From Verrucomicrobiales bacterium (lineage in GTDB: Bacteria > Verrucomicrobiota > Verrucomicrobiia > Verrucomicrobiales > DEV007), in contig JARGPJ010000002.1 in the NCBI GenBank assembly GCA_029212615.1, forward strand, positions 372,001 to 436,000: a DNA stretch of 64,000 nt, given 5' to 3'. Positions 32,506 to 52,444 of this stretch are shown here, in pieces (position 1 is the first letter of the stretch; each line of letters begins with the position of its first letter). A model generated the notes under the pieces. That model was given only the letters and a program-made list of their open reading frames with translations. It was not told the origin of the DNA and did not search any database. The translations under genes were made by a program, and so were the position numbers.

Positions 32506-33531
32506 CTACTCGACGGAGGTAACGGCTCCGTTCACCTCCATGATCCGGTCAACTTCGAACGTTTTCGATCCAAGTCGATCAACTCCGAATGGAGTGATTG
32601 TCAATACTTCGAGCGTGTAGTTGCCGTCCTCTTCAAAAACCTCATCCCACCCGCTGATCTCCAAGGTATGATCTTCCGGAACGGTTGAATTCAGCACCAA
32701 CGCCGAACCCGGGACAATGATCCCCTCGACCCCATCGTCGAGTGCGCCTTTATAAACTTGCGCATAGGTTTGTGAATTAGGATAGAGGTCGCTCAGTTCG
32801 ATCTCCAATTCCGGCATTCTCCCCTTATAAACATCATTGTCATTGAGGCCTGAAATTTCGCCGCTGGCTACCGGCCATATCTGAATGAAGTCGGAGGCGA
32901 TCTGTGACGCATCAGCTTGATAATCGGCGAGCGAGAAGATCGAAATTCTTTCTTCTCCCCGAACTCTATTTCTCGGATTCCCGGGCACTTGAGTGATCGC
33001 AAATTCCAGGGTAGTCGTCCCATTTGAAGTGATAGAAGAGGATGCCTGAAGCGTCGCCTGGTTCCGATCCACATCCTGCCCATTCCCACCATTGTACGAC
33101 TGAGCATGATGAAGCAGCGTGACCTGCTTTGAGGGAAGAGGATCAGAGGAACCACTGAGAAGGCCATTGACTGTTACTTTTACCTGAAAAGGACGGTCTG
33201 CTCTTGTTCGCGGAATTACGTCGTAGGGATCTTCAGAAATAATTTCTATCTCTCCTACAGGAACATAAGAATTAACGTAGCGGGTATCGAGCAGATAACT
33301 CGTTAGGGGGCTGTTCTTCACGGTGTAGAGCTCAAACTGCGACCCCCCGAGTACAATAGGAAACGGGGCAAGTTGGCTTCCTTCGGCCTCAACCGGAATA
33401 TCCCATTGTAAGCCTGTGGTAACATGGATCTGCCTGATAAAGTTCGTGTAATCCTGCCCCTGAATGAACGACGGCAAAACCGATAGTGCGCCCAAGGCGC
33501 CCGCAAGAATGACTGCGCTTAGATGTTTCAT
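32506..33531 (-). CDS. Exported protein of unknown function, pilus-locus associated
   Basis: I do not recognise this 341-residue protein. It has a signal peptide (residues 1-25, ending FIQG) and a mature part dominated by beta strands, with two or three immunoglobulin-like segments suggested by FQVKVTVNGLL and TLEISGWDEVFEEDGNYTLEVLTI. No catalytic motif is visible. It is the last gene of a three-gene minus-strand operon and overlaps the preceding gene by 4 bases (ATGA). The operon is divergent from the minor pilin operon and shares its AT-rich intergenic region, so a role in pilus biogenesis or at the cell surface is inferred. Confidence 0.7.
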   Translation of the reverse strand: MKHLSAVILAGALGALSVLPSFIQGQDYTNFIRQIHVTTGLQWDIPVEAEGSQLAPFPIVLGGSQFELYTVKNSPLTSYLLDTRYVNSYVPVGEIEIISEDPYDVIPRTRADRPFQVKVTVNGLLSGSSDPLPSKQVTLLHHAQSYNGGNGQDVDRNQATLQASSSITSNGTTTLEFAITQVPGNPRNRVRGEERISIFSLADYQADASQIASDFIQIWPVASGEISGLNDNDVYKGRMPELEIELSDLYPNSQTYAQVYKGALDDGVEGIIVPGSALVLNSTVPEDHTLEISGWDEVFEEDGNYTLEVLTITPFGVDRLGSKTFEVDRIMEVNGAVTSVE

Positions 33532-34106
33532 TGTTCAGTTGCTGTGTTAGCGGTAGCAGAATCGGGCTCCGTATAGGGAAGCACTGAGATGGCGCCTCCC
33601 TTGTAGGTGGCAATGATGAGTCGACCACTGTTTTTCATCCATTCAATCTTCGCCGGGTCGAATGGCTTTTTCCCGAAGGCAGTTTCTATATCAACCTCGT
33701 AGGTAGTGATCCAACCGCGATTCAGGACCGAAAACTCTGAAAACGTCTTTATCTTGGCCTTTTCATCAGTCACTAGACGGGACTCAAAGCGTTCCGGAAG
33801 ATTTAAGACCGCGCCCTTCGGCACAAAGGTCAAATTCCCGTTGTAGGAAATAATCTCGGAATCCTTTACGAAATCGCCTGAGGGTGCCGCAATTTTTTTG
33901 TCCTCTTCAACGTCCCTCATTTCGAGATGGCCCATCGGACTGTTCTGCCTCGCCATTTTGAGCCGCTGTGAAAGCTCATCATGAGTCGCCGCGTTGCGAA
34001 ACTCCAGGCCTTTCAGGTCTCCCTGCGAGAAGGCGTTCCCTGAAAGAATCAGGAGTAGAACGGAAACGAAGGCGGATGAAAAATCTAAGGAAAAGATGTG
34101 TCTCAT
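33528..34106 (-). CDS. Exported small protein of unknown function
   Basis: This 192-residue protein has a hydrophobic N-terminal segment (LDFSSAFVSVLLLILSGNAFS) acting as a signal peptide, then a mature domain containing GDFVKDSEIISYNGNLTFVP and RGWITTYEVDIETAFGKKP. It overlaps both neighbours by 4 bases, so its synthesis is probably coupled to theirs. No known family is recognised. The conserved-looking GAVLNLPERFESR stretch suggests a compact soluble domain. A function with the other two exported proteins and the facing pilus genes is inferred from position only. Confidence 0.7.
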   Translation of the reverse strand: MRHIFSLDFSSAFVSVLLLILSGNAFSQGDLKGLEFRNAATHDELSQRLKMARQNSPMGHLEMRDVEEDKKIAAPSGDFVKDSEIISYNGNLTFVPKGAVLNLPERFESRLVTDEKAKIKTFSEFSVLNRGWITTYEVDIETAFGKKPFDPAKIEWMKNSGRLIIATYKGGAISVLPYTEPDSATANTATEQ

Positions 34107-34828
34107 ACTCGGCGAAAAGTTACCAACAGAACAAGATCCTGCATATCAAAGCCCCACCCGTTCGGGTCGGTATGAGTGAGGTCAAAAATATAAATCACGT
34201 CCATCGGGCCAATATCGATTTTGCCCTGATCGTCGACATAAGGCTCAAGGAACGAGGAAATGTTTCCCTGTCCGTACGCTGAGATATAGTTAGGAGGACT
34301 ACTCCCATTGACCAATGCCCTGACATTAATCGTATTCGTATTCGCGGTGTGGTAGAATGTTTGTGTCTGCCCGTTGCTTTCGATGTAGCGACCGCCAAAA
34401 TGATTCTCCTCACCTTCACGAACCAATTTGGTGAAATAGATTTTGGAAGGGTTCACTTCGAGCTGAGTCCCCTTGAAGAATCGATCATAATAGTAATCTC
34501 CATCAGCAGCAATCCACGCTTCAACTTTCCGCCAGGTATGCCCATCACTCACGGAAGCTCCCAGCACACGGACGTCCATGTACAGGTCTTCTTTCGGGGT
34601 AATGACTCCGGGATCGACAATCTCAACAACCTCCGTAACAGTTTCCGGGTAAGTAATATTCCACTCCAATGAAGGATAGGTGCCGGCCTGCACCACGGAT
34701 GGAGACGCCGACAAGCTTCCGGTTGGAATGACCGGATCAGATTGATCATCGCCGATAGCAGGAAGCGCAGGAATCACCGCAAATGCCAGAAAGGCAAGGG
34801 TGTGCGCGTATAATGAATTCAGTTTCAT
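34103..34828 (-). CDS. Exported protein of unknown function, first gene of divergent operon
   Basis: This 241-residue exported protein has a signal peptide (residues 1-26, ending LPAIG) and a beta-rich mature part. SLEWNITYPETVTEVVEIVDPG and VITPKEDLYMDVRVLGASV stand out, and many aromatic residues lie near DGDYYYDRFFKG. I associate this type of protein with verrucomicrobial pilus loci, but cannot name a family. It leads the minus-strand operon whose promoter must lie in the 200-base AT-rich space shared with the minor pilin operon. A motif GTAAATTATGG on the minus strand at 34895-34905 may be part of that promoter. Confidence 0.7.
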   Translation of the reverse strand: MKLNSLYAHTLAFLAFAVIPALPAIGDDQSDPVIPTGSLSASPSVVQAGTYPSLEWNITYPETVTEVVEIVDPGVITPKEDLYMDVRVLGASVSDGHTWRKVEAWIAADGDYYYDRFFKGTQLEVNPSKIYFTKLVREGEENHFGGRYIESNGQTQTFYHTANTNTINVRALVNGSSPPNYISAYGQGNISSFLEPYVDDQGKIDIGPMDVIYIFDLTHTDPNGWGFDMQDLVLLVTFRRV

Positions 34829-35028
34829 ATGAGCTTTTGGTTTGAGTTGAGCGAATCTAAGATGCTCTGCCTCTCCTTAGAATTACAAGAAAAACCATAA
34901 TTTACAATTAGCAACTGTTATTGCAGTTTTTATGATTTTATTAATTGTGGAAATTATATCAAAGCGGTTTATATTCGGGATAAACTTGTAAGCGCCTCGT
35001 ATTTTACCGCTCTCCTCTCTCTAGAACC
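34829..35028. promoter_or_regulatory. AT-rich divergent promoter region
   Basis: These 200 bases separate two divergent operons and are much richer in A and T than the coding DNA, especially 34880-34980. They hold a minus-strand GTAAATTATGG (34895-34905) and a plus-strand TTAATTGTGG (34941-34950), both related to the TAATTATGG motif found before other transcription units in this cluster. A TATATT at 34970-34975 could be a -10 element for the minor pilin operon; no good -35 is visible. Confidence 0.5.
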
Positions 35029-35511
35029 ATGTATCATCGCCGATCATCCAAATTCTCAGCGCGCGGTTATGCTCTCATCGAAATTGCAGCCAGCTATGCA
35101 GCTCTCGTCATCGTCGCTCTGATCACCCTGCGCTCGACAATGAATAACGTGTCAGGTCAGCAGTGGACCGTTAAGCAGGCCATGACAGACGCCTACCTGA
35201 CCCGTGAAACAGCCCTTGCCTCCCGGGTTCCTTTCACGGAGATCAGATCAAACTCCTCACCCTGGCCGGAGGAACCTGACGTATCCACTCAAACGGTCCC
35301 CGTAGGTCGGCTTCCCGGAGGGACCGTCGTTTCAGCCACCCTGCACCGCACCCGCATCCCCGATGCGAACAATCTGAACAGTGGCAGCGGGACCGGCAAC
35401 AGCAACTCAAATCCCGCCCTCTCCGAAGCCTGGAAGCTTCAATCCATTCTCGTCTACACGGTCGGAAACAAGGAATACGTCAAAACTCGAACAACACTCA
35501 GAGTCCGATGA
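35029..35511 (+). CDS. Minor prepilin, GspI/PilV-like
   Basis: This 160-residue prepilin has a type III signal sequence: basic residues, then ARG, cleaved before YALIE, which puts the conserved glutamate at +5 of the mature protein. A hydrophobic helix follows (ASYAALVIVALITL). The globular part contains TVVSATLHRTRIP and a low-complexity GSGTGNSNSN loop. It heads a tight three-gene operon, and size and order match GspI in type II secretion or PilV in type IV pili. It may correspond to one of the 'Verru_Chthon cassette' proteins named in protein-family collections. It probably belongs to the priming or tip complex of the pilus. Confidence 0.82.
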   Translation: MYHRRSSKFSARGYALIEIAASYAALVIVALITLRSTMNNVSGQQWTVKQAMTDAYLTRETALASRVPFTEIRSNSSPWPEEPDVSTQTVPVGRLPGGTVVSATLHRTRIPDANNLNSGSGTGNSNSNPALSEAWKLQSILVYTVGNKEYVKTRTTLRVR

Positions 35512-36044
35512 ATATTATTCCAGAAAAAAGAAAGAAGATGGGGTTCACCCTCATCGAGATGACACTCGCTGTTGTTCTGAGCGTCGGAATCGCTGCTGTT
35601 ATCGTCGTCATGGTGCAACAACAGATCAGCATTACATCGACCATCAATCGATTCAGCTTTCTTCGTGAAGACGCCCCGCAAATTAACGTGCTAATGAGCA
35701 ACCTCATCACCCAGGCGGATGACTACCGGATCTATCCCAATACCGCAAATGCGAAGGCAGCACTCAATGCCGTAACAGAAGATGGAAACGCAATCCGATT
35801 GAGGTTCCGCCTCCCTGATGGATCGATTGACAATGCCATTGTCGCGTTCGAAACCATCAGCGGCAAAAAACAGCTGAGCTTCTACTACAAAGACAGTGGC
35901 ACCCCGGCTTGGCAAACCGCTCCTGACTGGGTCGTGTCTTCCCGACCTGACGTCGTCCGGTTTTCCAACAACACAGGAGTTCTCGAAATCACGCTCGTCG
36001 GAAAGTACGGCGAAGAGGTCACGTTCGCAGGCAACCCAATCTGA
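35508..36044 (+). CDS. Minor prepilin, GspJ/PilW-like
   Basis: This 178-residue prepilin has a textbook cleavage site: KKMG followed by FTLIEM, with glutamate at +5 and a hydrophobic helix TLAVVLSVGIAAVIVVMV. The mature domain includes LMSNLITQADDYRIYP, a typical GspJ/PilW feature in which the helix continues into a small sheet domain. It overlaps the upstream GspI-like gene by 4 bases and the downstream K-like gene by 1 base, so the three are probably made in fixed ratio. In type II secretion the I and J pseudopilins bind K at the filament tip. Confidence 0.85.
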   Translation: MNIIPEKRKKMGFTLIEMTLAVVLSVGIAAVIVVMVQQQISITSTINRFSFLREDAPQINVLMSNLITQADDYRIYPNTANAKAALNAVTEDGNAIRLRFRLPDGSIDNAIVAFETISGKKQLSFYYKDSGTPAWQTAPDWVVSSRPDVVRFSNNTGVLEITLVGKYGEEVTFAGNPI

Positions 36045-38071
36045 TGCAAAATCACTTCCCCACCAAATCCCGAAAGAAGTGCCGAGGCTACGGAACTTTC
36101 GTTCTTGTTGCAACGATTTCCCTCGTGATGCTCACCTTGCTCACGCTGAACCTGATCAACAGCCTCAAGAGCATGGATATGCAGAAGACGGCGCAAGTTA
36201 AGCAGGACTACACTCAGCGTGAAAACGCGATCCTGAACGCTCTTATTCATATTGTTCCGAACAAGGCTATCGGCGCAATGCAGCGCGACTCGTCGAACAG
36301 TTCTGACACCTTTACCTGGGAGACGATTTTTGATGAAGCCCTCGACCTTGCGAACGCAGAGCAGGCAGTCGATCCGCAGCTCTTAACGTCGCTCGATATC
36401 ACCTCCGCAATCTCTGCCAACACCGGTGACGCCACGATCTCGGATATTGATGCCCTCGTGAGTCGGCCTTCGGATTCGCCCCTCAGCGGCGATTCAATCG
36501 TTAACGGTGGAAACTTCTGGGAAACAACCATGCTGTTCGATTCCGATTTCTACAGCCATATCCCGGCCCCACTCACGCTCAGCACCCAAAACAATGCCAA
36601 GAAGGACCGGACTTACCCGATCATTTCTTTCGACAAAACACACGTCCCTAACGATGACGGGTCACTCGATCCCGTTTATCACAAAGGGCTGGGAGTTTCT
36701 GCCGATCTCTACCCACTCTACAATCAACTGACCTATCCAGATGTAAAATTCGGCTACAAACGGCCCGGAGATCTCTTCGTGGGAAAACGAAACTGGTGGG
36801 TCTTTTCGCTGACCTTTGGAAAAGATGAAGCCGAACTGACCGGAGTCCCGCCTGTAACACGAAACTACCTTCTATCGATTTACGAAATCCCGTCACAACT
36901 TCCCCTCTCCTCAACCAACACCATGACCGTTGGTGAATACGAGGATGGAACCTCCTGGGATGACGTCTCGATCACGGGAAGCCTCTATTCACACCGTCTC
37001 AAAACAGAAGGTGATGTCGTCGTTGATTCAGGAGCGCTTTCAGCTCGCGACTGGGTCGAAGTGTCCAGTCAGACAACGGTAGACGGTAACACTTTAGATA
37101 ATAGCTTCGACGCTCTCGGAACACGGGAAACGCTCTCGGCTGCCGGCGCGAACGACTTCTACGGTGCCTCGGTTGCGGGAAATGTGGGGAAAGTTGCTTT
37201 CATCCCCATCAACCGTGGAAACAACTTCCTCTGGCCCGGGGGCAATGACAGTAACTGTATCTCACCTACCGGCTGGCAATATTACAGCCGGGGAGCAAAT
37301 CAGTGCACCATGAGGATCGAAATGCGGAGAATGAATTCCTCCAGCGATCAGACCCCGGAGCAGGTTCGTTTTCATTACAAAGACTCGAACGGAACCACCA
37401 CTCGAAGAGTCACCTACACACGGGGTTCAAACTGGCCCACCGAGTTCGAATCCGGGGGGGACCGGTTCCCTTTTCAAACCGAGATCATGGCCAATTCCCG
37501 GATGGCGCTGGTCTACTATCCCGACCGGATGCCTGATTTTCTCGACGACCTCGGAAACGCAGCCGATGTTTCCGTGAACAATTCAATCGTGATATATCCG
37601 AACACCGGCAGGGCTACCGTCGAAGCCCCCAGCATTCCAGCGGAAGACGACGATTTGGTGGTTTCCCTCAAAGGCTGTAAAGATTTAACGGATTACACGA
37701 ATGGATTCTCGCTCTTAACACGCTATCGCCTCTACATTGCCGATTCCTTCAACGCAACCTCCACAACCCCTCCGGCAAACTCAGGACTTCCTGTCGGAGA
37801 TGAATACTTCCCGCCGGCCTCACTCTTTTCTCCCGAGAAAAGATTCGGAGATTCGCCACTGGCGGAACAGACCGTCAAAATTACCGGCCAGCTCAGTTCG
37901 CTCAAAACGAGCAACAACAATGAGTATCATCCACTTGAGCTGCAAATGGCGGATGATTCGGCAGTAACGTCCGAAAGAATTCAGGCAGATCTTGTCGACC
38001 TCACCTCACCTGCCGAACTTCCCCCTATCCACATGATGAACTGGCTGGTGACCATCGAGCCGATACGTTGA
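36044..38071 (+). CDS. Very large GspK/PilX-like minor pilin, possible pilus tip protein
   Basis: This 675-residue protein begins with basic residues and RGYGTFVLVATISLVMLTLLTLNLI, a pilin-like helix in which position +5 is valine, not glutamate. Loss of Glu5 is characteristic of GspK and some PilX tip pilins. The helix continues as NSLKSMDMQKTAQVKQDYTQRENAILNAL, typical of PilX-like proteins. Beyond it lies a globular region of over 500 residues, about twice the size of GspK, with beta-rich and Asn/Ser-rich segments and few cysteines. It is third in an I-J-K order. The extra domains could act as an adhesin at the tip of the fibre. The assignment to a pilus tip is inferred. Confidence 0.78.
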   Translation: MQNHFPTKSRKKCRGYGTFVLVATISLVMLTLLTLNLINSLKSMDMQKTAQVKQDYTQRENAILNALIHIVPNKAIGAMQRDSSNSSDTFTWETIFDEALDLANAEQAVDPQLLTSLDITSAISANTGDATISDIDALVSRPSDSPLSGDSIVNGGNFWETTMLFDSDFYSHIPAPLTLSTQNNAKKDRTYPIISFDKTHVPNDDGSLDPVYHKGLGVSADLYPLYNQLTYPDVKFGYKRPGDLFVGKRNWWVFSLTFGKDEAELTGVPPVTRNYLLSIYEIPSQLPLSSTNTMTVGEYEDGTSWDDVSITGSLYSHRLKTEGDVVVDSGALSARDWVEVSSQTTVDGNTLDNSFDALGTRETLSAAGANDFYGASVAGNVGKVAFIPINRGNNFLWPGGNDSNCISPTGWQYYSRGANQCTMRIEMRRMNSSSDQTPEQVRFHYKDSNGTTTRRVTYTRGSNWPTEFESGGDRFPFQTEIMANSRMALVYYPDRMPDFLDDLGNAADVSVNNSIVIYPNTGRATVEAPSIPAEDDDLVVSLKGCKDLTDYTNGFSLLTRYRLYIADSFNATSTTPPANSGLPVGDEYFPPASLFSPEKRFGDSPLAEQTVKITGQLSSLKTSNNNEYHPLELQMADDSAVTSERIQADLVDLTSPAELPPIHMMNWLVTIEPIR

Positions 38072-38154
38072 CAGGAATGACGGAAAGAATGCGTTATTTT
38101 AAGTTTTTAAAATTTACGACTTAATTAACAAAACTGTTGATTCTTATAATTTTA

Positions 38155-38188: not shown

Positions 38189-38190
38189 CA

Positions 38191-38877
38191 ATGAGTCATC
38201 ACGACATTCCGCCCAGTATCAACATTCCTTCAGGCCTGACGATCGGCTACCGCGCGACACTACTCAAGGAAAGGAAGGAAACCTGCCTCGCTCACGCTGA
38301 GAATGAAATCAATCTTGAGCCGGGGAGGCACCTCCTTCTCGCCAGGAACGGAAGGGGCAAAACGACACTGCTAAAGTCAGTAGCAGGCATCATCCCGACG
38401 CTTTCCGGCAAAATTTCAAGCACCGGAACAATCCAGTTCGTCGACGAAGATCTCCGCTTTGACGGGGAGATGACGGCGAAACAGATCATCAAAGCGCTCT
38501 TCAAAAAGCCACAGCGTCAGTTCGCTTTTGAGATGGCTGAAAAGATCGAACTCGATATCGAGAAACCCTACGGAAAACTGTCCAAAGGGAATCGTCAAAA
38601 AGTCGGACTGATCGTGGCAGAGACCAGAACGCAGTGCCGGGGCAATCACATCCTCCTCCTCGATGAACCCTTTTCAGGGCTCGATTTTGCAGCAAGAGAA
38701 GCGGTTGATCGCGTCTGGAGCGAAAACCGTGACGGCATTGTCAGAGTTGTTTGCGTTCACCCCGATGAACCCACCCTCAAGGCCGATTCAGCCATCATGA
38801 TTCGGAGCGGCCAGCTCGAACAGATCGAGGTCGCCGGCTCTTTAGACTGGATGGAAACCAAAGAAGCCCTCAGCTAA
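38191..38877 (+). CDS. ABC transporter ATP-binding protein in the pilus cluster
   Basis: This 228-residue ABC ATPase has an unusual Walker A, ARNGRGKTTL, with Ala-Arg in place of Gly-Pro. The signature motif is LSKGNRQKVGL, the Walker B ILLLDEPFSGLD, and the switch histidine lies in VCVHPDE. It forms an operon with a six-helix permease and a membrane-anchored partner. The position between pilin genes and pilT recalls pilH of Myxococcus xanthus, an ABC ATPase needed for pilus assembly, where pilG, pilH and pilI lie inside the pil cluster. That parallel is my inference; the ATPase family assignment itself is secure. Confidence 0.88.
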   Translation: MSHHDIPPSINIPSGLTIGYRATLLKERKETCLAHAENEINLEPGRHLLLARNGRGKTTLLKSVAGIIPTLSGKISSTGTIQFVDEDLRFDGEMTAKQIIKALFKKPQRQFAFEMAEKIELDIEKPYGKLSKGNRQKVGLIVAETRTQCRGNHILLLDEPFSGLDFAAREAVDRVWSENRDGIVRVVCVHPDEPTLKADSAIMIRSGQLEQIEVAGSLDWMETKEALS

Positions 38878-38897
38878 CCGATTACCCTATTTACCTC

Positions 38898-39662
38898 ATG
38901 GAACTTTTCCGCCTTACCTTTGCTTCGATTATCACACGGAAGACCTTTGCTATTTTCGCAATGCTCCTTCTCGCACTGCCATTCGTTCTTCCCTACATGA
39001 CCCCATGGGAAACAAAGCCATCCATCATTGAGCCAGCCCGCGCTCAGGCCTCCTGGTGGATGCTTTGGGTAGCTGCCGCATGTTGGCTCCTTTTTCAGGG
39101 CGCAAATATCGGAGACCGATGGGCCTCACACGGCATCCTTGAGTATTTCAAGACACTCGGGAAGAACCGGGTCAATCAAATGTTTCAAATCTGGCTGGCC
39201 TGCTTTTCAATCTTCGCCGGCATGATTCTGATTACGTTCGGAATCAGCACGTTCACGGCGATGCCGGGTGACCCCATCGAGGCGCATCATTGGCTCGTCA
39301 CCAATTTCCAGTATGTGCTTCTCTTTCTCCTCGTCACTGCTCCCCTCCTTCTTTTTTCGATTGCGATGGGAACGCGTTTCCGAGGCGCCGTCGCATATGC
39401 CGTTACCCTGGGGCTCCTCGTTCATGGTCTTTTCGGAATTCGCTACCTTGAGGTGTTCCTGGCAGACAACAAGAGTCCTCTTCTCAACTTCATCTATGTG
39501 GTCTCTCCCCACTATCACCTTTCTGATTTAACCTCCCGCCTTGTCTTCAAGCTCGGGGCTCTTCCCTGGGGGGAAATGGGAAACATTGCACTGTATCTAG
39601 CCGGACTTGGCCTGTTGACCGTTGGTTTCTCTATTCAGCTTTTTAAGGAGGTCAAATCATGA
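38898..39662 (+). CDS. ABC transporter permease, six-helix type
   Basis: This 254-residue integral membrane protein has about six hydrophobic helices, from FAIFAMLLLALPFVLPYM near residue 18 to IALYLAGLGLLTVGFSIQL at the end, and fits the ABC-2 type of permease. A sequence match to a named family is not evident. It starts 20 bases after the ATPase gene, and its end overlaps the next gene by 4 bases. With the ATPase it should form a transporter in the inner membrane. Whether it exports something or works as a mechanotransmission machine for pilus assembly cannot be told. Confidence 0.8.
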   Translation: MELFRLTFASIITRKTFAIFAMLLLALPFVLPYMTPWETKPSIIEPARAQASWWMLWVAAACWLLFQGANIGDRWASHGILEYFKTLGKNRVNQMFQIWLACFSIFAGMILITFGISTFTAMPGDPIEAHHWLVTNFQYVLLFLLVTAPLLLFSIAMGTRFRGAVAYAVTLGLLVHGLFGIRYLEVFLADNKSPLLNFIYVVSPHYHLSDLTSRLVFKLGALPWGEMGNIALYLAGLGLLTVGFSIQLFKEVKS

Positions 39663-40606
39663 AACCGGGTTTTCACCTCTTCACCATCGCTCTCTATGCC
39701 ATCGGTTTTACTGCGGTGGCGTTCTCCAGCGTCACTCTCTCTCAGAGCGGGACCCTGGATCCCGGCGACAATCCTTTCGCTCTGAAGCAATCCGCCTATG
39801 GACGCCTTCTTGCCCGACTCTCAGAAACCACGGTCGACCGTGTCTGGCACCTTGGGGTGGAACAGATCGTTCCTCACTACATGTCCGGCACTGAGGCCCA
39901 CACTGAAGCGGCCACCAAACACATTTCGGAGCCGACAACAGAACCCGCAATAGAAGCAACAACGGCGAGCAAAGAGGCTCCCTCAAAACCGATGATTGAG
40001 CTCGCGAAAGGCTGGGTTCAAAAAAGAGTGGTTTCTCAGTATACGAGAACCAATCCCCACGGAATGACCGAGAAGCACATCACCAGCATCAATCGGGGAA
40101 TCGCCGATATGCTCAAACGAAGCTACGATCTCGACCCCACCCACTACGGTGCATACAACTCCTATAGCCTGTTCATTACGCACCAAACATACGGCGGATC
40201 GAAAGAAGGTAGAAAAGCTGCTAAGCGGTTGGCAAAGGAAACGATTGATCATATCAAGAATGAAACCGAAGATCCTGAAGCGTATCTAACTGCTGCTTCA
40301 GCATCGATGAACCTCTTCATCCTTGAGACCGAAGACGCCCGCATGAGCGGCGCCAAAATCCCTCTCAAAACGCTTAAGCATTTCAGAGATCAGACCGCTT
40401 TCTTGCTCGGTAGATTCGAAAACCTCCAGGAAAAGGCCGAAGAAACCGGGACATGGGATGCCCTCTCGTTTGAGCGCCAGGTAGAAATTGCTCAGCGGCA
40501 CCGCTTCACCCGGAAAACGAGTGAACAATTTCAAGCAATGATCACACGTGCCGAAGACAGGCTTGAGAGCGAATCGAAAGCTGAAATCGTCGAGAATATC
40601 GATTAA
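39659..40606 (+). CDS. Membrane-anchored partner of the ABC transporter, unknown
   Basis: This 315-residue protein has one N-terminal transmembrane segment (residues about 5-28, FHLFTIALYAIGFTAVAFSSVTL) and a long, almost entirely helical extracytoplasmic part with TPR-like character (NRGIADMLKRSYDLDPTHYGAYNSY). An Ala/Thr/Glu-rich stretch at about residues 80-105 looks like a linker. It overlaps the permease gene by 4 bases and is followed by a strong terminator, which closes the three-gene operon. I do not recognise the family. In the pilGHI comparison it would stand where PilG does, but no sequence similarity is claimed. Confidence 0.72.
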   Translation: MKPGFHLFTIALYAIGFTAVAFSSVTLSQSGTLDPGDNPFALKQSAYGRLLARLSETTVDRVWHLGVEQIVPHYMSGTEAHTEAATKHISEPTTEPAIEATTASKEAPSKPMIELAKGWVQKRVVSQYTRTNPHGMTEKHITSINRGIADMLKRSYDLDPTHYGAYNSYSLFITHQTYGGSKEGRKAAKRLAKETIDHIKNETEDPEAYLTAASASMNLFILETEDARMSGAKIPLKTLKHFRDQTAFLLGRFENLQEKAEETGTWDALSFERQVEIAQRHRFTRKTSEQFQAMITRAEDRLESESKAEIVENID

Positions 40607-40814: not shown

Positions 40815-40824
40815 GTAATTATGG
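40815..40824 (+). promoter_or_regulatory. TAATTATGG motif before pilT
   Basis: GTAATTATGG here is the best copy of a motif repeated before several transcription units of the pilus cluster. It contains an in-frame ATG at 40821. If the motif is a promoter or operator element, that ATG cannot be the start of pilT, which supports the ATG at 40860 instead. Confidence 0.45.
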
Positions 40825-40859
40825 TTTTTATTAAATGCACCAGCTCACACGAGTCTTCA

Positions 40860-42612: not shown

Positions 42613-42652
42613 TCCTGTCCGCAAGACCAACAGTTTTGCGGGCGGGACTTTT
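42613..42652 (+). terminator. Intrinsic terminator after the pilin gene
   Basis: TCCTGTCCGCAA (42613-42624) and TTGCGGGCGGGA (42636-42647) form a 12-bp stem including two G:U pairs, with an 11-base loop, followed by CTTTT. It would end most pilin transcripts and leave the pilM-like operon at lower expression or under another promoter. The remaining 100 bases to the next start show no clear promoter. Confidence 0.75.
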
Positions 42653-44569: not shown

Positions 44570-45139
44570 ATGAAAAGCTCCGCACATACCTCTGCCATTG
44601 CCATCTTTGGCGTAGCACTGCCCTTCTTTGTCGTTCTTATCCTACTGGGTGGAACTCTCTACGGCCGGAACAAACTGCAGAGTGAACACAATAGTAAGCA
44701 AGCCATTTACAACAAACACCGGGAGGCCAAAGCCGCCGTAATGGAACTGGATGCCTTTCTGACGAGAGAAAACCGCCGGGAGAAAGTCGCCTATTGGAAC
44801 GAAAAGCTTGAACTCGATTTTATTCAGTCGCTGAGCGAAAACCTCGAAAGGATCCTCTCAGACTTTGATACCTCAGCCCTCCGCCAAACTGCCCTGACTC
44901 AGGCAAAAGGTTTAAGCCAGATTGCTTCAAAAGTAGACAATCCACATTCCCGCATCCAACTCAGTTTTGAAGGAGGCTTTAAGCCTATGCAAATCCTTCT
45001 AGCGGAACTGGAGAAGGAAATGCCCCACCTCTTCCTCGAAAGCGTATCGATCAAACCAACGCTTGCTTCAAACGAAAGCGAACAGGGCTTTCTATCATTC
45101 ACACTCACCTACATGTGCTGGGAGAAGCCGAAGTCATAA
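44570..45139 (+). CDS. PilO/GspM-like inner-membrane protein (Amuc_1100 position)
   Basis: This 189-residue protein has an N-terminal transmembrane helix (residues about 9-29, AIFGVALPFFVVLILLGGTLYG), a coiled coil (EHNSKQAIYNKHREAKAAVMEL) and a small C-terminal alpha/beta domain (IQLSFEGGFKPMQILLAELEKE), the plan of PilO and GspM. It starts 2 bases after the PilM/N-like gene. Its position corresponds to Amuc_1100 of Akkermansia, the protein studied for effects on host metabolism, but it is clearly shorter than that protein (about 317 residues from memory). Direct orthology is suggested by order and architecture, not proven. Confidence 0.72.
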   Translation: MKSSAHTSAIAIFGVALPFFVVLILLGGTLYGRNKLQSEHNSKQAIYNKHREAKAAVMELDAFLTRENRREKVAYWNEKLELDFIQSLSENLERILSDFDTSALRQTALTQAKGLSQIASKVDNPHSRIQLSFEGGFKPMQILLAELEKEMPHLFLESVSIKPTLASNESEQGFLSFTLTYMCWEKPKS

Positions 45140-45145: not shown

Positions 45146-45775
45146 ATGATGAAATACCTCTTTTGTCTAGTCATCCTGTCCTTCTCAAGCATCGTCTCCC
45201 GGGCTCAGGAAACCCCTCCCCTGATCGCTTCATCAGAAGAGGCAACAAGCACAGAGCAGGCTGATCAGGAGGAAGCTTCCAGTGAGGCGGTTCCGGAGGA
45301 TCTCGACATCAAGGTCAGAGCAGCCTTCGTCTTCGACAAGATTCGTTTCAATGATCGCCAGGTTGACCCTTTCGGCCTCGCCATGGACCCGGCAAACATG
45401 GTGCAGCCGATGGCGATGTCTGACCAATATCAGGATCCGGAGGAAACGGCGGTAATCAGCAACTCAACGTTAACGAATGCACTCCAGACTGTCCCGATAA
45501 CCGGAATCTACCCGAAGAGACAAACCATTGTGATTGGTGCCCGCGTATTCAAAGCGGGAGATATCTTCGGAATGAAGCTCGAAGAATTGGTGGTTCGCCT
45601 ACGTTTTGAAGGCATCAAAGGAACTGAAGTCTACTTTAAAGACCTTGATACGCAGGAGATGGCTTCCGTGGAGTACAACGCGCTGCCAGCCACCTTCGAA
45701 CCGATTACGGCCTCTTCCCCGCTTGAGCGTGGTGCCGGGATCGTCCCGATGAACGACCTCTACATTGTGAATTAA
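45146..45775 (+). CDS. Exported PilP-like protein (Amuc_1099 position)
   Basis: This 209-residue protein has a signal peptide (ending VSRAQ), an acidic linker rich in E, S and A, and a folded C-terminal domain of about 110 residues. That domain contains TVPITGIYPKRQTIVIGARVFKAGD, similar in plan to the PilP/GspC homology region that connects the inner-membrane complex to the secretin. No lipobox cysteine is present, unlike classical PilP lipoproteins. It follows the PilO-like gene by 6 bases. The functional call rests on position and layout, as sequence similarity is weak by eye. Confidence 0.65.
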   Translation: MMKYLFCLVILSFSSIVSRAQETPPLIASSEEATSTEQADQEEASSEAVPEDLDIKVRAAFVFDKIRFNDRQVDPFGLAMDPANMVQPMAMSDQYQDPEETAVISNSTLTNALQTVPITGIYPKRQTIVIGARVFKAGDIFGMKLEELVVRLRFEGIKGTEVYFKDLDTQEMASVEYNALPATFEPITASSPLERGAGIVPMNDLYIVN

Positions 45776-45872: not shown

Positions 45873-47990
45873 ATGAAACTAAAAGACATCGGAACGATCC
45901 TTGTCGCAGGAGCTCTCTCTCTTGGCGCAATCGTCCTCATCGAAACCCGACCAGGGTTTGATACCTCATCAGGAAAGCTTTCCGGGCCACGGACTGAGTT
46001 GAACTTCGCTGACAATTCAATCATTCTTGAATCATCAGTTCCGGCGCCAACAGCTGAGCCTCCAGTGGCAGGTGATTCCGATGAAGCGCCCAACGGAGGA
46101 CCTGAAGCACCTGACTCTCCTGTCCAGGATGACAGTGGCCTCGTTGCTGATCTGCCAGACGATTTTGATCCTCTTGAGGATAGCCTCACTACCGGTTCGG
46201 ACACTGAATCAGTTCCCAGCTTCGACGACACTTTTGCAGATGCGATCGCCGAAGCAACAGTGGATGATTCCATCCCGACAACGGGGATGAGCGAGCCCGC
46301 TACAGAGGTAGTCGAACCTGCTTCAATTATCGAAGAAACTTCTACCGGCTTCTGGCTCCGGGAGGCCCGGCTTAACGATGTCTTCCAACATCTTGCCCAG
46401 CAGGCTGATCGCCAGTTTTTTCATAACTCTGATTTGGACGGCCCATCCTTCGTCGTCACTGGTCAGCTCATGAATGACGACCCTATCCGCCAGATGGAAG
46501 AACTGGCGCTGATGTATGGAATCACGATTCATACGAAGGGAAATACCGTCTATGCCCTCACCGGCTCCCAACTTACCCAGCTGCCGACGCAACCTTTTCG
46601 CTACCAACTGAGGTATCTGCGGCCAAACGATATCGAACAGATCAAATTGATTCTGCAGCCTTTCCTTACACCCGGCAGCGGAATCATCGAATACGAGACC
46701 AAAACGAATACGCTCATTGTCATGGACAACGAACGGAAGTTGGATGCCCTTGCTGTCTTCCTGGAGCAAATTGATCAACCGAAACAACAGATTGCGATCG
46801 AAACCCGGATTCTTCGAGTCACGAGCAGTTCCGCCAATCGAATCGGTGTAGACTGGTCGAGCGTCCTCGGTGAAAACGGCATGCCTTTTGGTGCAGCGGG
46901 AAGCCTCAATTCACTCTTCAATCTACCTGAAGCCTACGAAGCCGCTGCAGTGCTCGTTTCTGATGCCAATGCCGGGAACTCTCTAAGTTTGAGTTCAAGT
47001 TCCGACATTCTCTCTCCGACCGATAACACCGTCAATCAGAACGATGATGCCGGACTGGTTCTCTCCCCCTTCCAAATTCAGGCGGTCCTGAGAGCCTTAA
47101 ACGAAGGTGGCCTTGCCCAACAGGAATCATCGCCAACTCTTATCACCGAGGACAACGAAGAGGGTCTCATTTCCATCATTGACCGCATTCCGATCATTAC
47201 CGCTACGATTAGCGAGACTGACTCCGGCCAGAATGTGAGTGAGGAGGTCCGCTACTCAATTGACGATAGCGATCCTGTCGGCGACCCGGCGACAACCCGT
47301 GAAGTCGGCGTCACCGTCTCCGTGACCCCGACGATTTTACCCGACGACACGATCCGGATGTCACTTCGTCCCCGTTCGGCGCAAGTCGTCGAATATATCG
47401 AAGGTCAAAGCGGAAACCTCTACCCCCGCGTCAATGAGTCGACCGTCACTACGATTGCCCGGGTCCCCAATGGGCATTCTCTTCTCGTCGGTGGCTTCTA
47501 TGAGGAAACACAGTCAAGCAGCGAAAACAAGGTCCCTATCCTCGGAGACATTCCTGCAGTGAAACTTCTTTTCAAGTCATCCACCAAGCAAAAGGAACAT
47601 ACCAGCCTGGTCTTCATTGTGACACCGAAACTCTATCGCCCCAATGTTCCCGGCGAGAATGACCTTATGTCTCACGAAATTCACGACAGCCACGTGCTTC
47701 CATCCAATCACGACTATCCTGATCCGCAACACCCGGGACATTCCTATCAATCTGATTTTAGAAACACTGCGAACAATCTGTTTGAAAAGTATGAGCCGGA
47801 TGCACCGACTAACATCCTTCATCCCGGCCACCCCTATAACTCACCCTCCTCTCTTCCCTCACACGACAAGAACGGATCAGAGACACCCTCATTCGAAAAC
47901 CCCAGCGTTACCGTTCGAGCCGTTGAAGCTCCGAAGAGAAACGGATTCTTTCAGAAAGTCTTCAAAGGAAATAAGGGAAAGCACAACTGA
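45873..47990 (+). CDS. pilQ: Type IV pilus secretin PilQ-like
   Basis: The secretin forms the outer-membrane ring through which the fibre passes. This protein has 705 residues. After a hydrophobic N-terminus comes an acidic, Pro/Ser/Asp-rich linker of about 110 residues, then N-domains (FWLREARLNDVFQHLAQQA, FRYQLRYLRPNDIEQIKLIL). The secretin domain covers about residues 400-605, with VPILGDIPAVKLLF near 554 and LVFIVTPKLY closing it. A C-terminal tail of about 100 residues is rich in His, Pro, Ser and Asn and ends basic (FKGNKGKHN); such a tail is not usual and would face the periplasm or carry the pilotin-binding site. It corresponds in order to Amuc_1098. Confidence 0.9.
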   Translation: MKLKDIGTILVAGALSLGAIVLIETRPGFDTSSGKLSGPRTELNFADNSIILESSVPAPTAEPPVAGDSDEAPNGGPEAPDSPVQDDSGLVADLPDDFDPLEDSLTTGSDTESVPSFDDTFADAIAEATVDDSIPTTGMSEPATEVVEPASIIEETSTGFWLREARLNDVFQHLAQQADRQFFHNSDLDGPSFVVTGQLMNDDPIRQMEELALMYGITIHTKGNTVYALTGSQLTQLPTQPFRYQLRYLRPNDIEQIKLILQPFLTPGSGIIEYETKTNTLIVMDNERKLDALAVFLEQIDQPKQQIAIETRILRVTSSSANRIGVDWSSVLGENGMPFGAAGSLNSLFNLPEAYEAAAVLVSDANAGNSLSLSSSSDILSPTDNTVNQNDDAGLVLSPFQIQAVLRALNEGGLAQQESSPTLITEDNEEGLISIIDRIPIITATISETDSGQNVSEEVRYSIDDSDPVGDPATTREVGVTVSVTPTILPDDTIRMSLRPRSAQVVEYIEGQSGNLYPRVNESTVTTIARVPNGHSLLVGGFYEETQSSSENKVPILGDIPAVKLLFKSSTKQKEHTSLVFIVTPKLYRPNVPGENDLMSHEIHDSHVLPSNHDYPDPQHPGHSYQSDFRNTANNLFEKYEPDAPTNILHPGHPYNSPSSLPSHDKNGSETPSFENPSVTVRAVEAPKRNGFFQKVFKGNKGKHN

Positions 47991-48667
47991 TGAGCGTAAC
48001 TGCAGAAAACACTACTGCTCCCCGTTCCCAGTCCCGTCCCGGACCTTCCCGGGAGCCCGAGAATTCAGATGAAGCGCTGGCCGCACCGGAGACCGGGAAG
48101 AGCGATATCAGGAAAATCTCCTTTGATCTTCTCAATCGGCAGATCGCACACTGCGGGGAATACACTTATCAAGCTCTCAACAAAATTGGAAAACTGAGCC
48201 CTCAGGACACCAGCCGGATCACACAGAAGTATCTCAAGACGCTGAATACCATTGAAAAGGGAACCCCCTTTCCGGACGCTCTCCACTTTCTCGTTACGGA
48301 AGGATGGAAGAAAACCGAGGTCGAAGCACGGGATGTCACGCTTGAGATCACCAAATCCCTCATTCGCTATTCGAAGACGAAAGTAAGTCACCTTGCCTTT
48401 GCCCACCAAACCGAAACACCCATCGAATTTTACCGGTCCTATCCGGCCGTCTCCGAGATTTGCCGCCTCCTCGGATGTCCTATCATTCAAGTGAGCGAAA
48501 AGGACTTTGTCACGGTGACCTCAATCAACCCTTACACCGCAACCGCAGCGGCAAGGCTAATATCCAACGAACTCGAAGCGGAAGTGGGCAGGAAGCCCTT
48601 CTATTTCGTGACGACGACAGATCTGAACGCCTGGAAATACACCTGTGAAAGGCACTTCGGCACATGA
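47990..48667 (+). CDS. Small MshEN-like protein upstream of PilB
   Basis: This 225-residue protein starts on the last base of the pilQ stop and overlaps pilB by 4 bases, so it is translationally coupled to both. The first 40 residues are disordered and Pro/Arg-rich. Residues about 45-130 are helical. The C-terminal 80 residues (VSEKDFVTVTSINPYTATAAARLI to FVTTTDLNAWKYTCERHFG) resemble the MshEN or GspE N-terminal domain in pattern, as if one such domain had been split from the motor. The c-di-GMP binding residues of MshEN are not obvious. It may couple PilB to the inner-membrane complex. Confidence 0.65.
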   Translation: MSVTAENTTAPRSQSRPGPSREPENSDEALAAPETGKSDIRKISFDLLNRQIAHCGEYTYQALNKIGKLSPQDTSRITQKYLKTLNTIEKGTPFPDALHFLVTEGWKKTEVEARDVTLEITKSLIRYSKTKVSHLAFAHQTETPIEFYRSYPAVSEICRLLGCPIIQVSEKDFVTVTSINPYTATAAARLISNELEAEVGRKPFYFVTTTDLNAWKYTCERHFGT

Positions 48668-50352
48668 ATCTTAACATTGGCATCCCTCTAAACGAAACCA
48701 TCAGCGACGCGGTCATTGACCAGCTGATCGAGCTGGATCCCGCCCTCGGCGAGCGTTCCCGTGAAGACATCCCCCGTACCTGCACTTCCAACCGGATTCT
48801 CGCAGCGGTAGGTACTATCACGTCCCTTCCCCTCTTCCTGAAGATTAAGGACTTCGTAGACCGTCAACTTCTGGAGGAATCAGACCCCTCACTCCTCAAC
48901 CGGGGCATGTTCGTGCCTCTCTACAAAGATACCGATCAAATCTACATCGCGGTTGCAAACCCCTGGGATCCAACGGCAGAAGACACGTTCTCCCAGCAGT
49001 ATCCTGATCTGGAGGTAACCAAAATTCTGGCTCCTGTTGCTGAAATTTCCACCGTGATTGAAACGGTTTCGAGAACAACAGGCCCCTCACAGTCCGATCT
49101 CGACGCGATCGAAGTCGATGACCGCGCGGATGAAATCAGCGATTTCAACGTCACCGAAAAGCACACCGAGCCACTGGCGCAACTTGTCGCCAAGATCTGC
49201 TCCGACGGGATCAAGCAACGGGCCTCTGACATTCACATTAAGTGCGACAAAGACCGGGTTCATTACAGTTACCGCATTGACGGGGATATGGGCGAAAAGT
49301 TCGAGATTCCCATGAAGTTGAAAGATCGGGTCGATGCCTTTCTCCTGAACCTCATGGGGCTTGCTCCCGAAGAACGAGCGGTCCGCCCCGGCATCTCAGG
49401 ACGATTTACGGTGAACTATCTCCGCCGCTCCATTGACATGCGCTTTGAGCGCCACCGCACTTATCGGGGATACCACGTTACCATGCGTATCCTCGACAAA
49501 AGTCACTTCGAGGCAAAACTCGGTGTCGGATCGCTCGCCTTCGACGCCGCGACCCTCTTTGAGTTGGAGAAAGTGATGGCGATTCCGGCCGGAATTATCG
49601 TTATGTCAGGTCCAACCGGATCCGGTAAATCAACGACATTGAACGCAATGCTTCGTGAGTTAAACCGACCCGAAGACAATATTCTGACGCTTGAGAACCC
49701 CGTTGAGGATGAAATCAACGGAGTCCTTCACTGCGACATCAAGCCGAATGAGTTCAAACCGATGATTGCCAGTTTCATGCGAAGCGATCCGGACATCATT
49801 CTCATGGGTGAGGTTCGTGATATGGATTCCGCTGAGCTGGCGATCGAAGCCGCGATCACCGGGCACAAAGTCCTGACCACGATTCACACGCCGCGAGCAT
49901 CTCAAATCATCGAACGATTCGAACAGATCGGGATCGAACGATGGAAGATCGCGCAGACCTTGAAAGCGGCCTGCGCCCAGCGTCTCATCAAGCTTCTCTG
50001 CCCATACTGCAAGATTAAGAAAGGCGGGCTCGCTGAACGTGAGGTGAGAAAATTCAACCTCTCCGATGATTGGCGCGATACACCCATTTTCTACCGGAAC
50101 AATGACGGTTGCGGGGAATGCGGCGGACGCGGCTACCTCGGGCGAACGGCTATCCTTGAGATCATCCCCATTACCCCGGAATGGTCCGACGCCCTTTCAA
50201 AGGGAACTCTCAGCCCCTACGAACTTGAGTTGGCCGTCCGTGAACAGGGCATCCTGCCATCGCTGAGAAAAAGTGGACTCAAACTCGTACGCGAAGGTCG
50301 ATGTGATCTCGAGGGCTTAAGGAAAGTCATCGATATGTCTTCCAGCGATTAA
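48664..50352 (+). CDS. pilB: Type IV pilus extension ATPase PilB
   Basis: PilB is the hexameric motor that drives pilin addition. This one has 562 residues with its own N-terminal MshEN-like domain (about residues 1-145). The ATPase core shows Walker A GPTGSGKST (near 316), the Asp box ENPVEDE, Walker B IILMGEVRDMDS and the His box TIHTPRA. A zinc-binding cysteine tetrad C446xxC449 with C483xxC486 confirms GspE/PilB and excludes PilT. It overlaps the upstream MshEN-like gene by 4 bases and is followed by pilC after 25 bases. The identification is secure; whether it serves a pilus or a type II system is decided by pilT being nearby. Confidence 0.94.
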   Translation: MNLNIGIPLNETISDAVIDQLIELDPALGERSREDIPRTCTSNRILAAVGTITSLPLFLKIKDFVDRQLLEESDPSLLNRGMFVPLYKDTDQIYIAVANPWDPTAEDTFSQQYPDLEVTKILAPVAEISTVIETVSRTTGPSQSDLDAIEVDDRADEISDFNVTEKHTEPLAQLVAKICSDGIKQRASDIHIKCDKDRVHYSYRIDGDMGEKFEIPMKLKDRVDAFLLNLMGLAPEERAVRPGISGRFTVNYLRRSIDMRFERHRTYRGYHVTMRILDKSHFEAKLGVGSLAFDAATLFELEKVMAIPAGIIVMSGPTGSGKSTTLNAMLRELNRPEDNILTLENPVEDEINGVLHCDIKPNEFKPMIASFMRSDPDIILMGEVRDMDSAELAIEAAITGHKVLTTIHTPRASQIIERFEQIGIERWKIAQTLKAACAQRLIKLLCPYCKIKKGGLAEREVRKFNLSDDWRDTPIFYRNNDGCGECGGRGYLGRTAILEIIPITPEWSDALSKGTLSPYELELAVREQGILPSLRKSGLKLVREGRCDLEGLRKVIDMSSSD

Positions 50353-50377
50353 CTATTTCCCTACTGCCTCCATTTGC

Positions 50378-51562
50378 ATGAGCACTGCTAAAAAAGAAAT
50401 CAAGGTATCCGCTGCCCAGGCTGCCCTGGCTGCACGTATCGAAGAAAAAAATCGCGCGACCTCTTCACATCACGGTACGGAAAAGAAGGCGCTTTTCAGT
50501 TCATCCGAAAAAAAGTCCAAGTTCCCAACCAAGGAGCTAATCAAGCTTTCACGTGGGATGGGTTCCATGCTTCGCGCTAACATTAACACTGCGGATGCGA
50601 TCAAATACTACTCCAGCGGACATCCTTCAGTCGTGGTGCGGAAAACGCTCGCCACGGTAAGGGAACAGATTGAAACGGGTCTACCCGCATACGCCGCCTT
50701 CGAGAAAACGGAGAAGTTTGATGACAAGTTCATTTCGCTGGTCCGGGCCGGTTGTGACTCAGGGCAGTTGAGTAAGGCATTCGAATCGATCGCCAAAACC
50801 CTCAAGAAGGAAGCCGAATTCAAATCGAAGATGCGAAAGGCGACTTTGATGCCCTCAATCATTATTTTTGCACTCGTCTTACTGTTCATCGGGGCGCAAC
50901 TCCAGATCATTCCCCAGATTGAGAAGATCCTCGACGACATGAAGCAGGAACCGGACGCAGTCTCCGGGTTCCTCTTCAAAATGAGTCACGTCACTCAGAA
51001 AATCTGGCTGCTGCTTGTTGGTGGAATGGTAGGCTCTGTCAGCGCCTTCATGTTTATCGAGAAGGTTCGAAACGCCGTCACCTTCTTCATGATGTCAAAA
51101 TGGAGACTTTTGAAGAAGCTTATCATGGGAATGCGACAGCTGCTATTCCTGGGCAGCCTTGAAATGTTACATTCGAACGGAATCAACCTCTCCCGCGCCG
51201 TCGAAATTTCAGCGGAGTCACTTAAAGGGACCCCGATGTATTCGGAGCTGATTCAGGCAGGATTACGCTACGTGGAAACCGGCCTGCCCTTCTCGGAAGC
51301 GATCCGAAAATTCACGTCTTGCGACCCACAGGTCTCACACCTCATTGCCATTGGTGAGCGTTCCTCTTCTCTCGGTGAACAGCTGCACCTCCTCAATGAA
51401 ATGTATGAGGAAGACGTCGATCAAATTGTGCAGCAATTCGCTGCTACTGTGAATCTGGTTGTCATGATGATCGCTGCGCTTTTGATCACGGCAGTCTTCA
51501 TCGGTGCCTTCCTTCCAATTTTCCTGATGGGACCAAAAATGATGAGTGGTTCCGGTATGTAA
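50378..51562 (+). CDS. pilC: Type IV pilus inner-membrane platform protein PilC
   Basis: This 394-residue polytopic protein is the GspF/PilC platform on which PilB and PilT act. Two repeats are visible, one at about residues 50-185 (LIKLSRGMGSMLRANINTADAI) and one at about 250-380 (LLFLGSLEMLHSNGINLSRAVEIS). Each is followed by a hydrophobic segment, and a final helix is VVMMIAALLITAVFIGAFLPIF. The family motif GERSSSLGEQL appears in the second repeat. It follows pilB directly. No prepilin peptidase gene follows, as it often does in other systems; that gene must be elsewhere. Confidence 0.93.
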   Translation: MSTAKKEIKVSAAQAALAARIEEKNRATSSHHGTEKKALFSSSEKKSKFPTKELIKLSRGMGSMLRANINTADAIKYYSSGHPSVVVRKTLATVREQIETGLPAYAAFEKTEKFDDKFISLVRAGCDSGQLSKAFESIAKTLKKEAEFKSKMRKATLMPSIIIFALVLLFIGAQLQIIPQIEKILDDMKQEPDAVSGFLFKMSHVTQKIWLLLVGGMVGSVSAFMFIEKVRNAVTFFMMSKWRLLKKLIMGMRQLLFLGSLEMLHSNGINLSRAVEISAESLKGTPMYSELIQAGLRYVETGLPFSEAIRKFTSCDPQVSHLIAIGERSSSLGEQLHLLNEMYEEDVDQIVQQFAATVNLVVMMIAALLITAVFIGAFLPIFLMGPKMMSGSGM

Positions 51563-51590
51563 TTCCATTCCCCTTAACCTCCTCCTTACA

Positions 51591-51992
51591 ATGCAACAAA
51601 CAGCCATCGATCGTTATCTCAAAAAGAAGTACGTTCAGCAGACCGTCATCTATTGCAATACCCTTCCATATGCGATTCCTGAAGGGATCAATCTCGAAGA
51701 AACCACCGAGGAATCGGGGGGGCGATACCTCTACAGAATGACCGCCGCGAACGATAAGGCGTTGAATGAGCTCACAGCCCATCTCGAAGTAGCGAACATC
51801 ACTTATACAGCCCGAATCATGGACCAAACGGGCCTGAACGCGAAACTCTTCAACGACCCTGAAAAAAGTTTCACGATGCAGGTCGTATCGCTCATCCTTC
51901 TCATTGGTTTCATCGCTTTGGTGCTGAGCGGTAAACCGGTTGAGATCTGGCGCACCCTCTCTGCGAAGGAAGTGCCGGCTGAAGTGAAATAG
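51591..51992 (+). CDS. Small C-terminally anchored membrane protein of the pilus operon
   Basis: I do not recognise this 133-residue protein. It starts at the ATG at 51591 (MQQTAIDRYLKKKYV); the frame is open further upstream, but the extra residues would overlap the intergenic space after pilC. The N-terminal 95 residues look like a soluble alpha/beta domain, and one transmembrane segment lies at about residues 97-116 (VVSLILLIGFIALVLSG), leaving a short tail. Placed between pilC and a minor pilin, it is probably a pilus accessory factor. Confidence 0.65.
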   Translation: MQQTAIDRYLKKKYVQQTVIYCNTLPYAIPEGINLEETTEESGGRYLYRMTAANDKALNELTAHLEVANITYTARIMDQTGLNAKLFNDPEKSFTMQVVSLILLIGFIALVLSGKPVEIWRTLSAKEVPAEVK

Positions 51993-52027
51993 AACGTCCA
52001 CCGCACTTATTTACCAAACAAACAGGC

Positions 52028-52444
52028 ATGAATTTAAATTACAAACAAACAGCACGGGCCCTTGAGAAAGGCCTTACCCTTGTTGAAATATCACTCGTGA
52101 TCGGGCTTATGTTAGGCCTTGCATCGCTTGCGACATTTTCAGTCGGGAACATCACAGAATGGAAAAAGGCCCGCGAGGCAGGAGAGTCACTTCGGAGCGT
52201 CTATCTTGCTCAGAAATCCTACCTCGCGGACCATCCATCCTCAGCGACCGCCGCATTAACTTCCGAAAAGCTGATCCCCTACCTTCCGAACAGGGCTGCC
52301 GCGCTCCCGAGCGTCAAAGCAGCGGACGGTTCAGCCCTCACCATCAAACTGGACGTCGTCCCACCGGTTCTGGTAAAAGGCGGGAACACCTACGACCCCT
52401 CGGATTCCGCTTCCGATGCACTTTGGGATGTTGGCGCACTGTAG
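52028..52444 (+). CDS. Minor type IV prepilin
   Basis: This 138-residue prepilin has the cleavage site LEKG before LTLVEIS, with glutamate at +5 and a hydrophobic helix (LVIGLMLGLASLATFSVG). The globular domain lacks cysteines and ends DALWDVGAL. It resembles the pilin at 42152 in length and N-terminus, but has ordinary codon usage, which suggests low expression. Its 3' end overlaps the convergent glpD gene by 55 bases. It may be an initiator or alternative subunit. Confidence 0.84.
   Translation: MNLNYKQTARALEKGLTLVEISLVIGLMLGLASLATFSVGNITEWKKAREAGESLRSVYLAQKSYLADHPSSATAALTSEKLIPYLPNRAAALPSVKAADGSALTIKLDVVPPVLVKGGNTYDPSDSASDALWDVGAL

Follow-up and report, generated by a model that had tools for sequence, protein, structure and literature searches.

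A block of 20 adjacent genes from a Verrucomicrobiales bacterium likely encodes a complete, lineage-specific and retractile type IV pilus (T4P) machine, distinct from the Akkermansia-type pilus and the type II secretion system (T2SS) that reside in the same genome. The block occupies positions 32506-52444 of the window, that is, the whole 64,000-nucleotide stretch that we analyzed (contig C18:372001-436000 of a 4.55-Mb genome in 21 contigs), and all of its open reading frames (ORFs) are present at the coordinates given below. Seventeen genes (35029-52444) lie on the + strand, mostly overlapping or closely packed, and the remaining three (g1, g2 and g3; 32506-34828) are transcribed divergently from the - strand. 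Together they encode three secreted proteins (g1-g3), three minor pilins (mpV, mpW and mpX), an ATP-binding cassette (ABC) module with the protein g315, PilT, a pilin (pilin1), PilM/N-like, PilO/GspM-like and PilP-like proteins, a secretin, PilB, PilC, a second pilin (pilin2) and two proteins without a known family (g225 and g148). A sequence-only reading of this DNA had proposed at least 14 adjacent T4P genes in one divergent locus, with the alignment genes joined to motors, platform and tip genes in one place. The ORFs, the profile matches and a recurring gene order bear out the former proposal, and the gene content the latter.

A conserved pilus locus of Verrucomicrobiales

We used the PilM/N protein as bait and found it in 32 of 57 relatives; a profile search of 388 genomes taken from the phylum gave 18 with the protein, every one of them from the same order, and the window-type lineage has so far been seen only in Verrucomicrobiales. 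Gene order, read up to 20 kb around the PilM/N hits, revealed a shared gene set and arrangement in about 30 Verrucomicrobiales loci, with PilB and PilT identities of up to 94%. The common order is ABC ATPase, permease, g315, PilT, pilin1, PilM/N, PilO, PilP and PilQ; the order following PilQ is g225, PilB, PilC, g148 and pilin2. In most members of the window's genus, g3-g2-g1-mpV-mpW-mpX precede the ABC genes, and in family f4 the ABC genes come after pilin2 (L079 with L112). PilT was found in nearly every locus. No locus that had been read far enough lacked the ABC ATPase, and this constancy speaks for an integral role. In one genome (G032; L063/L089), the locus breaks after pilP and continues into unrelated genes (BatA-like by eye), reflecting either a rearrangement or a join in the metagenome assembly.

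Both motor ATPases were recognized by domain and by tree. The PilT-like ATPase (40821..42077), the presumed retraction motor, has an intact Walker A motif and scored 241.8 bits against TIGR01420 (cut-off 319). The PilB-like assembly ATPase (48664..50352) carries part of an MshEN domain at residues 65-137 as well as a CxxC...CxxC motif; it matched T2SSE at E=3e-76, reached 309.6 bits against TIGR02538 (cut-off 676) and 276 bits against the GspE model (cut-off 630), and its nearest solved structure is a PilB. In an ATPase tree holding few reference sequences, the PilT group separated from the PilB/GspE group with 100/100 support and one window-type clade fell in each, suggesting by placement that the window PilB and PilT form an extension/retraction motor pair. 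The two window-type clades (100/100) sit on stems of 4.3 changes per column for PilB and 3.3 for PilT, and because of these long branches the exact position of the motors within the tree is unsafe. The PilC/GspF-like platform protein (50378..51562) matched T2SSF at E=9e-37. The secretin (45873..47990) carries the secretin domain PF00263 (E=1e-36) and one Secretin_N domain only; PilQ (TIGR02515) was its best-scoring model at 154 bits (cut-off 284), a slight margin above GspD at 146 bits (cut-off 351).

The alignment proteins are more divergent. PilM/N (42750..44567) is likely a GspL-like PilM-PilN fusion, judging from an AlphaFold model built on five sequences with a mean pLDDT of 47. The predicted layout comprises a strand-rich, actin-like cytoplasmic part, a transmembrane segment at about residues 391-409, a coiled coil and a periplasmic alpha/beta domain, and all 11 Foldseek matches at E<0.001 belonged to the actin-like ATPase superfamily, with Pseudomonas aeruginosa PilM (5EOU) at rank 6. 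Position, topology and a low-confidence fold thus speak, weakly, for the fusion that had been proposed earlier; no meaningful profile match was obtained among 24 members. The PilO/GspM-like protein (44570..45139) exceeded the cut-off of PF10741 (24.0 versus 21.7 bits), which upholds its earlier naming. The accompanying PilP-like assignment (45146..45775) drew no profile match and follows mainly from position, aided by a signal peptide and by the conservation of an R..DPFG motif. Profiles of PilM/N, PilO and PilP gave no match in the PDB.

The cytoplasmic 225-aa protein g225 (47990..48667), to which no family could be assigned, had been called MshEN-like, and this identity failed all six tests applied to it. 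MshEN was not shown by the g225 profile against the PDB, by hhalign against two PilB alignments or by a Pfam scan of 19 g225 members; an MshEN search over 11 genomes at E <= 10 did not match g225; and an AlphaFold model (pLDDT 43) retrieved by Foldseek only Thermus PilF GSPIIB domains at E ~1. The MshEN domain of this locus lies inside PilB. The g225 ORF overlaps pilB by 4 nt, and the two are therefore probably translationally coupled.

Separation from the Akkermansia-type pilus

The sequence-only reading likened the stretch from pilin1 to PilQ to the order Amuc_1102 to Amuc_1098, making the locus a verrucomicrobial counterpart of that set with motors added and a reference for the complete Akkermansia-type machine. 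The formal order pilin-PilM/N-O-P-Q and the presence of a secretin agree with this proposal. However, a full Amuc set lies elsewhere in the same genome, at C19:480-488 kb, where genes matching the NCBIfam models of Amuc_1102 (Amuc_1102_rel, 134 bits, cut-off 55), Amuc_1101 (Amuc_1101_fam, 609 bits, just under 650), Amuc_1100 (Amuc_1100_fam, 195 bits, cut-off 180), Amuc_1099 (Amuc_1099_fam, 188 bits, cut-off 50) and Amuc_1098 (Amuc_1098_fam, 978 bits, cut-off 750) stand together. The Amuc_1100 relative on C19 also matches Amuc_1100 crystal structures, and the Amuc_1102 relative seems by eye to begin with an ordinary signal peptide and not with a class III pilin signal. The window proteins gave no match to the Amuc_1099, 1100, 1101 and 1102 models at E <= 0.05, and hhalign found nothing significant between PilM/N and Amuc_1101. 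The window secretin reached only 71 of the 750 bits set as cut-off for Amuc_1098_fam (NF042912), its best stretch being the C-terminal secretin domain. Three separate clades emerged in the secretin tree, one with the eight rows of window type (100/100), one with the four rows of Amuc_1098 type, Akkermansia among them (100/100), and one with the GspD group (100/99), so that profile and tree both place this PilQ-type secretin outside the Amuc_1098 family.

Co-occurrence points the same way. Akkermansia (group g4, whose Amuc_1100 is nearly identical to the crystallized 6LAD) carries the Amuc set, whereas window-type PilM/N was found in none of the g4 genomes listed. An Amuc_1098-family secretin scored above the cut-off in 52 of 57 relatives, including five of six Akkermansia genomes, the sixth reaching 712 bits (cut-off 750). 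Moreover, pilMNOPQ genes stay together even in cases in which the remaining pil genes are dispersed (PMC6060248); M/N-O-P-Q is this general order, and therefore order alone shows no kinship. Orthology with Amuc_1102-1098 was rejected on profiles, tree and co-occurrence, the counterpart proposal is highly improbable, and on these comparisons only a shared deep ancestor would remain for the two sets.

Further pilus genes lie elsewhere in the genome. A second Amuc_1098-family secretin at C19:540 kb scored 856 bits; the two genes, at C19:480755 and C19:540398, mirror a pair seen in most genomes of the order, and the second sits apart from the Amuc_1099-1102 genes. Two canonical PilB and a PilC on C6, and two PilT above cut-off on C5, presumably serve the Akkermansia-type pilus. 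A third compact T4P-like set was noticed on C12 at about 157-173 kb (L049/L050), comprising a 718-aa PilB with an MshEN remnant, PilC, several class III pilins, a PilT-like ATPase and a 756-aa secretin, with a pilin1-like gene nearby at C12:187262; its ATPases and secretin lie on very long branches.

These results indicate that two or more unrelated pilus sets are present in many Verrucomicrobiales but just one of them in Akkermansia, and they caution against transferring findings on the Akkermansia-type pilus (Amuc_1098-1102, with the host-active Amuc_1100 among them) to the locus described here.

Pilins, ABC module and flanking genes

Class III pilin signals were read directly at 35029, 35508, 36044, 42152 and 52028. 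The first three belong to mpV (35029..35511; RG/YALIE) in the PilV/GspI position, mpW (35508..36044; MG/FTLIE) in the PilW/GspJ position and the large, 675-aa mpX (36044..38071), which has an N-terminal pilin helix and is a candidate GspK/PilX-like tip subunit. Glu5 of mpX is lost in all relatives read, a loss expected for a GspK-like tip subunit, and profile scans gave no family match for mpX. mpV is kept in 10 or more loci. These three genes justify the minor pilins of the earlier reading; the first three genes of the block proved to encode signal-peptide proteins and not minor pilins, and they are divergently transcribed. They are g1 (32506..33531; 341 aa), a putative tip-complex or adhesin component with a signal peptide, g2 (33528..34106; 192 aa) and g3 (34103..34828; 241 aa), none with a known family, and Pfam returned nothing for g1 members. 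g1 adjoins mpV-mpW-mpX in L060, L061, L063, L064, L069-L072 and L078 and is rearranged in L112. In every relative in which it was read, the g3-g2-g1 block lies on the same strand as the minor pilins, so the window carries it inverted; its ends show just a weak 28-nt inverted-repeat pair (71%).

The remaining signals mark pilin1 (42152..42571; G/LTLIE), the probable major pilin, and pilin2 (52028..52444; G/LTLVE), neither of which matched the GspG model. Relatives carry one to four tandem copies of pilin1, and three relatives without it at the locus have a copy on another contig. In the small-genome relatives L069, L071 and L074, g315 is not at the locus and pilin1 is on another contig. An RNA hairpin of 15 pairs lies directly 3′ of pilin1 on the + strand (42613..42647). 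A comparable hairpin occurred 3′ of pilin1 in all seven loci tested (z -3.9 to -6.5), and in 9 of 12 consensus pairs both sides had changed with pairing kept. Equivalents sit in L061, L063, L064, L067, L068 and L070. The hairpin lacks a good T-run, making mRNA stabilization or partial attenuation likelier than full termination, and its conservation after pilin1 supports pilin1 as the abundant subunit. Promoter-like and terminator-like sites were no more numerous than in shuffles.

The ABC module consists of an ABC-2-like ATPase (38191..38877) with Walker A/B motifs and an LSKGN signature by eye, a permease with about six transmembrane segments (38898..39662) and the single-pass protein g315 (39659..40606). 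In L063, L064, L072, L073, L078 and L080, g315 contains a linker rich in His, Asp and Cys that resembles a metal-binding segment; it is absent from the window and its closest relative. Further downstream, g148 (51546..51992), which follows pilC in most loci, has a cytoplasmic domain and a C-terminal transmembrane anchor and belongs to no known family. As had been noted from the sequence, the window holds no prepilin peptidase: the genome has a single A24 gene, on C19, which is the sole PF06750 match.

Downstream, the block ends at a convergent gene that by eye resembles glycerol-3-phosphate dehydrogenase (52390-53922). On the other side, TamB-like and TamA/BamA-like genes (by eye) adjoin the locus at 24013-30797, and in L114 and L115 a gene pair of equivalent size sits beside g3. 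The interval 30805-32475, between the TamA-like gene and g1, holds two - strand genes, one sigma-factor-like by eye (31702-32475) and the other possibly its anti-sigma partner; this pair was not seen there in the relatives read.

Proposed mechanism and comparison with known systems

Based on the gene content, we propose that PilB, with the coupled g225, polymerizes pilin1 through PilC, that a PilM/N-O-P alignment complex links to the secretin, through which the fiber would exit, and that the PilT-like ATPase retracts it. The tip may be primed by the GspK-like mpX with mpV and mpW, probably together with the secreted g1-g3, and the ABC module would assist biogenesis or the export of tip proteins or pilins, as PilGHI is reported to do in Myxococcus. 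The stable hairpin could protect the abundant pilin1 message or separate it from that of the machinery genes, and the one prepilin peptidase of the genome, on C19, would process the pilins. Surface adhesion or twitching would be the expected output.

Several observations weigh against this proposal. None of the motor and secretin scores reaches the curated cut-off of its specific model, and homology accordingly does not guarantee function; the AIRNLIRE region of the window-type PilT family is degenerate and reads AVRSGIS. Sequence searches left PilM/N, PilP and g225 without a match, and confidence is low in the two structure models (mean pLDDT 47 for PilM/N and 43 for g225). In family f4, PilT-mpX-mpW-mpV-g1 lies on the opposite strand, with PilT at the far end in L112. 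The ABC module recalls Myxococcus PilGHI by description, and homology between the two is conjectural.

Some features of the locus could suit a T2SS or a short endopilus machine secreting g1-g3 or other cargo. The PF10741 (T2SSM_b) match, the GspL-like layout of PilM/N, the GspK-like absence of Glu5 from mpX and the narrow lead of PilQ over GspD in the secretin scores are all in keeping with secretion, and the GspL-like fusion, GspM-like protein and large GspK-like pseudopilin are the points at which the locus resembles GspC-M. However, nearly every locus has a dedicated PilT, pilin1 has no GspG match, the secretin has a single Secretin_N domain and falls outside the GspD clade, and a genuine T2SS with GspG above cut-off lies at C18:539-546 kb. 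The profile comparison of T4P with T2SS gave no firm T2SS placement, and we rejected T2SS as the principal explanation, considering it quite unlikely. A retractile pilus dedicated to DNA uptake instead of adhesion or twitching appears somewhat less improbable: retractile type IVa pili commonly drive DNA uptake, and labor may be divided in a genome with another complete pilus set, whereas general profile scans recognized no com genes in the locus. More speculatively, the locus might represent a separate Verrucomicrobiales-specific filament class in which the ABC exporter and its metal-binding-prone third protein are obligatory, possibly loading g1-g3/mpX or pilins, and which many genomes keep for another task beside their Akkermansia-type pilus; we regard this as possible, though clearly less probable than the retractile pilus machine proposed above.

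As such a machine, the locus has practical consequences. With its genes in a single locus, this second pilus lends itself unusually well to deletion or transfer as one block, and the locus places by association six conserved families that are unrecognized in the databases searched (g1, g2, g3, g315, g225 and g148).

Among known systems, the Akkermansia-type pilus shares the M/N-O-P-Q gene order and a PilM-like protein in long form; it differs in that no sequence relationship is detected beyond the secretin core, the secretin clades are distinct and both systems coexist in the same genomes. An MSH (mannose-sensitive hemagglutinin) pilus locus is compact and is arranged similarly to the window locus, with alignment complex and secretin followed by assembly ATPase, platform and pilins. 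The MSH prepilin peptidase likewise lies outside the locus (PMC6668835). MshM is mandatory in the MSH model of Denise et al. (PMC6668835), whereas no MshM-like AAA protein was recognized in the window locus besides PilB, PilT and the ABC ATPase, no MshM profile having been used; the locus also has its own PilT and has been seen only in Verrucomicrobiales.

The type IVa pili of Pseudomonas, Myxococcus and Thermus share both ATPases, the platform, the MN-O-P-Q order, a PilQ-type secretin, a minor pilin set and a prepilin peptidase encoded apart. Compared with them, the locus has long-branched motors scoring below cut-offs, PilM and PilN fused in a GspL-like manner and the additional g1-g3, g225 and g148, and PilY1, PilE and FimU were not recognized in it. 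In Myxococcus xanthus, PilG, PilH and PilI have been described as essential for pilin movement across the inner membrane (PMC3724824) and as ABC-like (PMC6060248). PilGHI are thus likewise ABC-type proteins within a T4P cluster, whereas the third protein of the present module, g315, has a variable His/Cys-rich linker in relatives. The constancy of the ABC module in the Verrucomicrobiales loci makes testable the old and little-followed observation that pili of Myxococcus require an ABC transporter.

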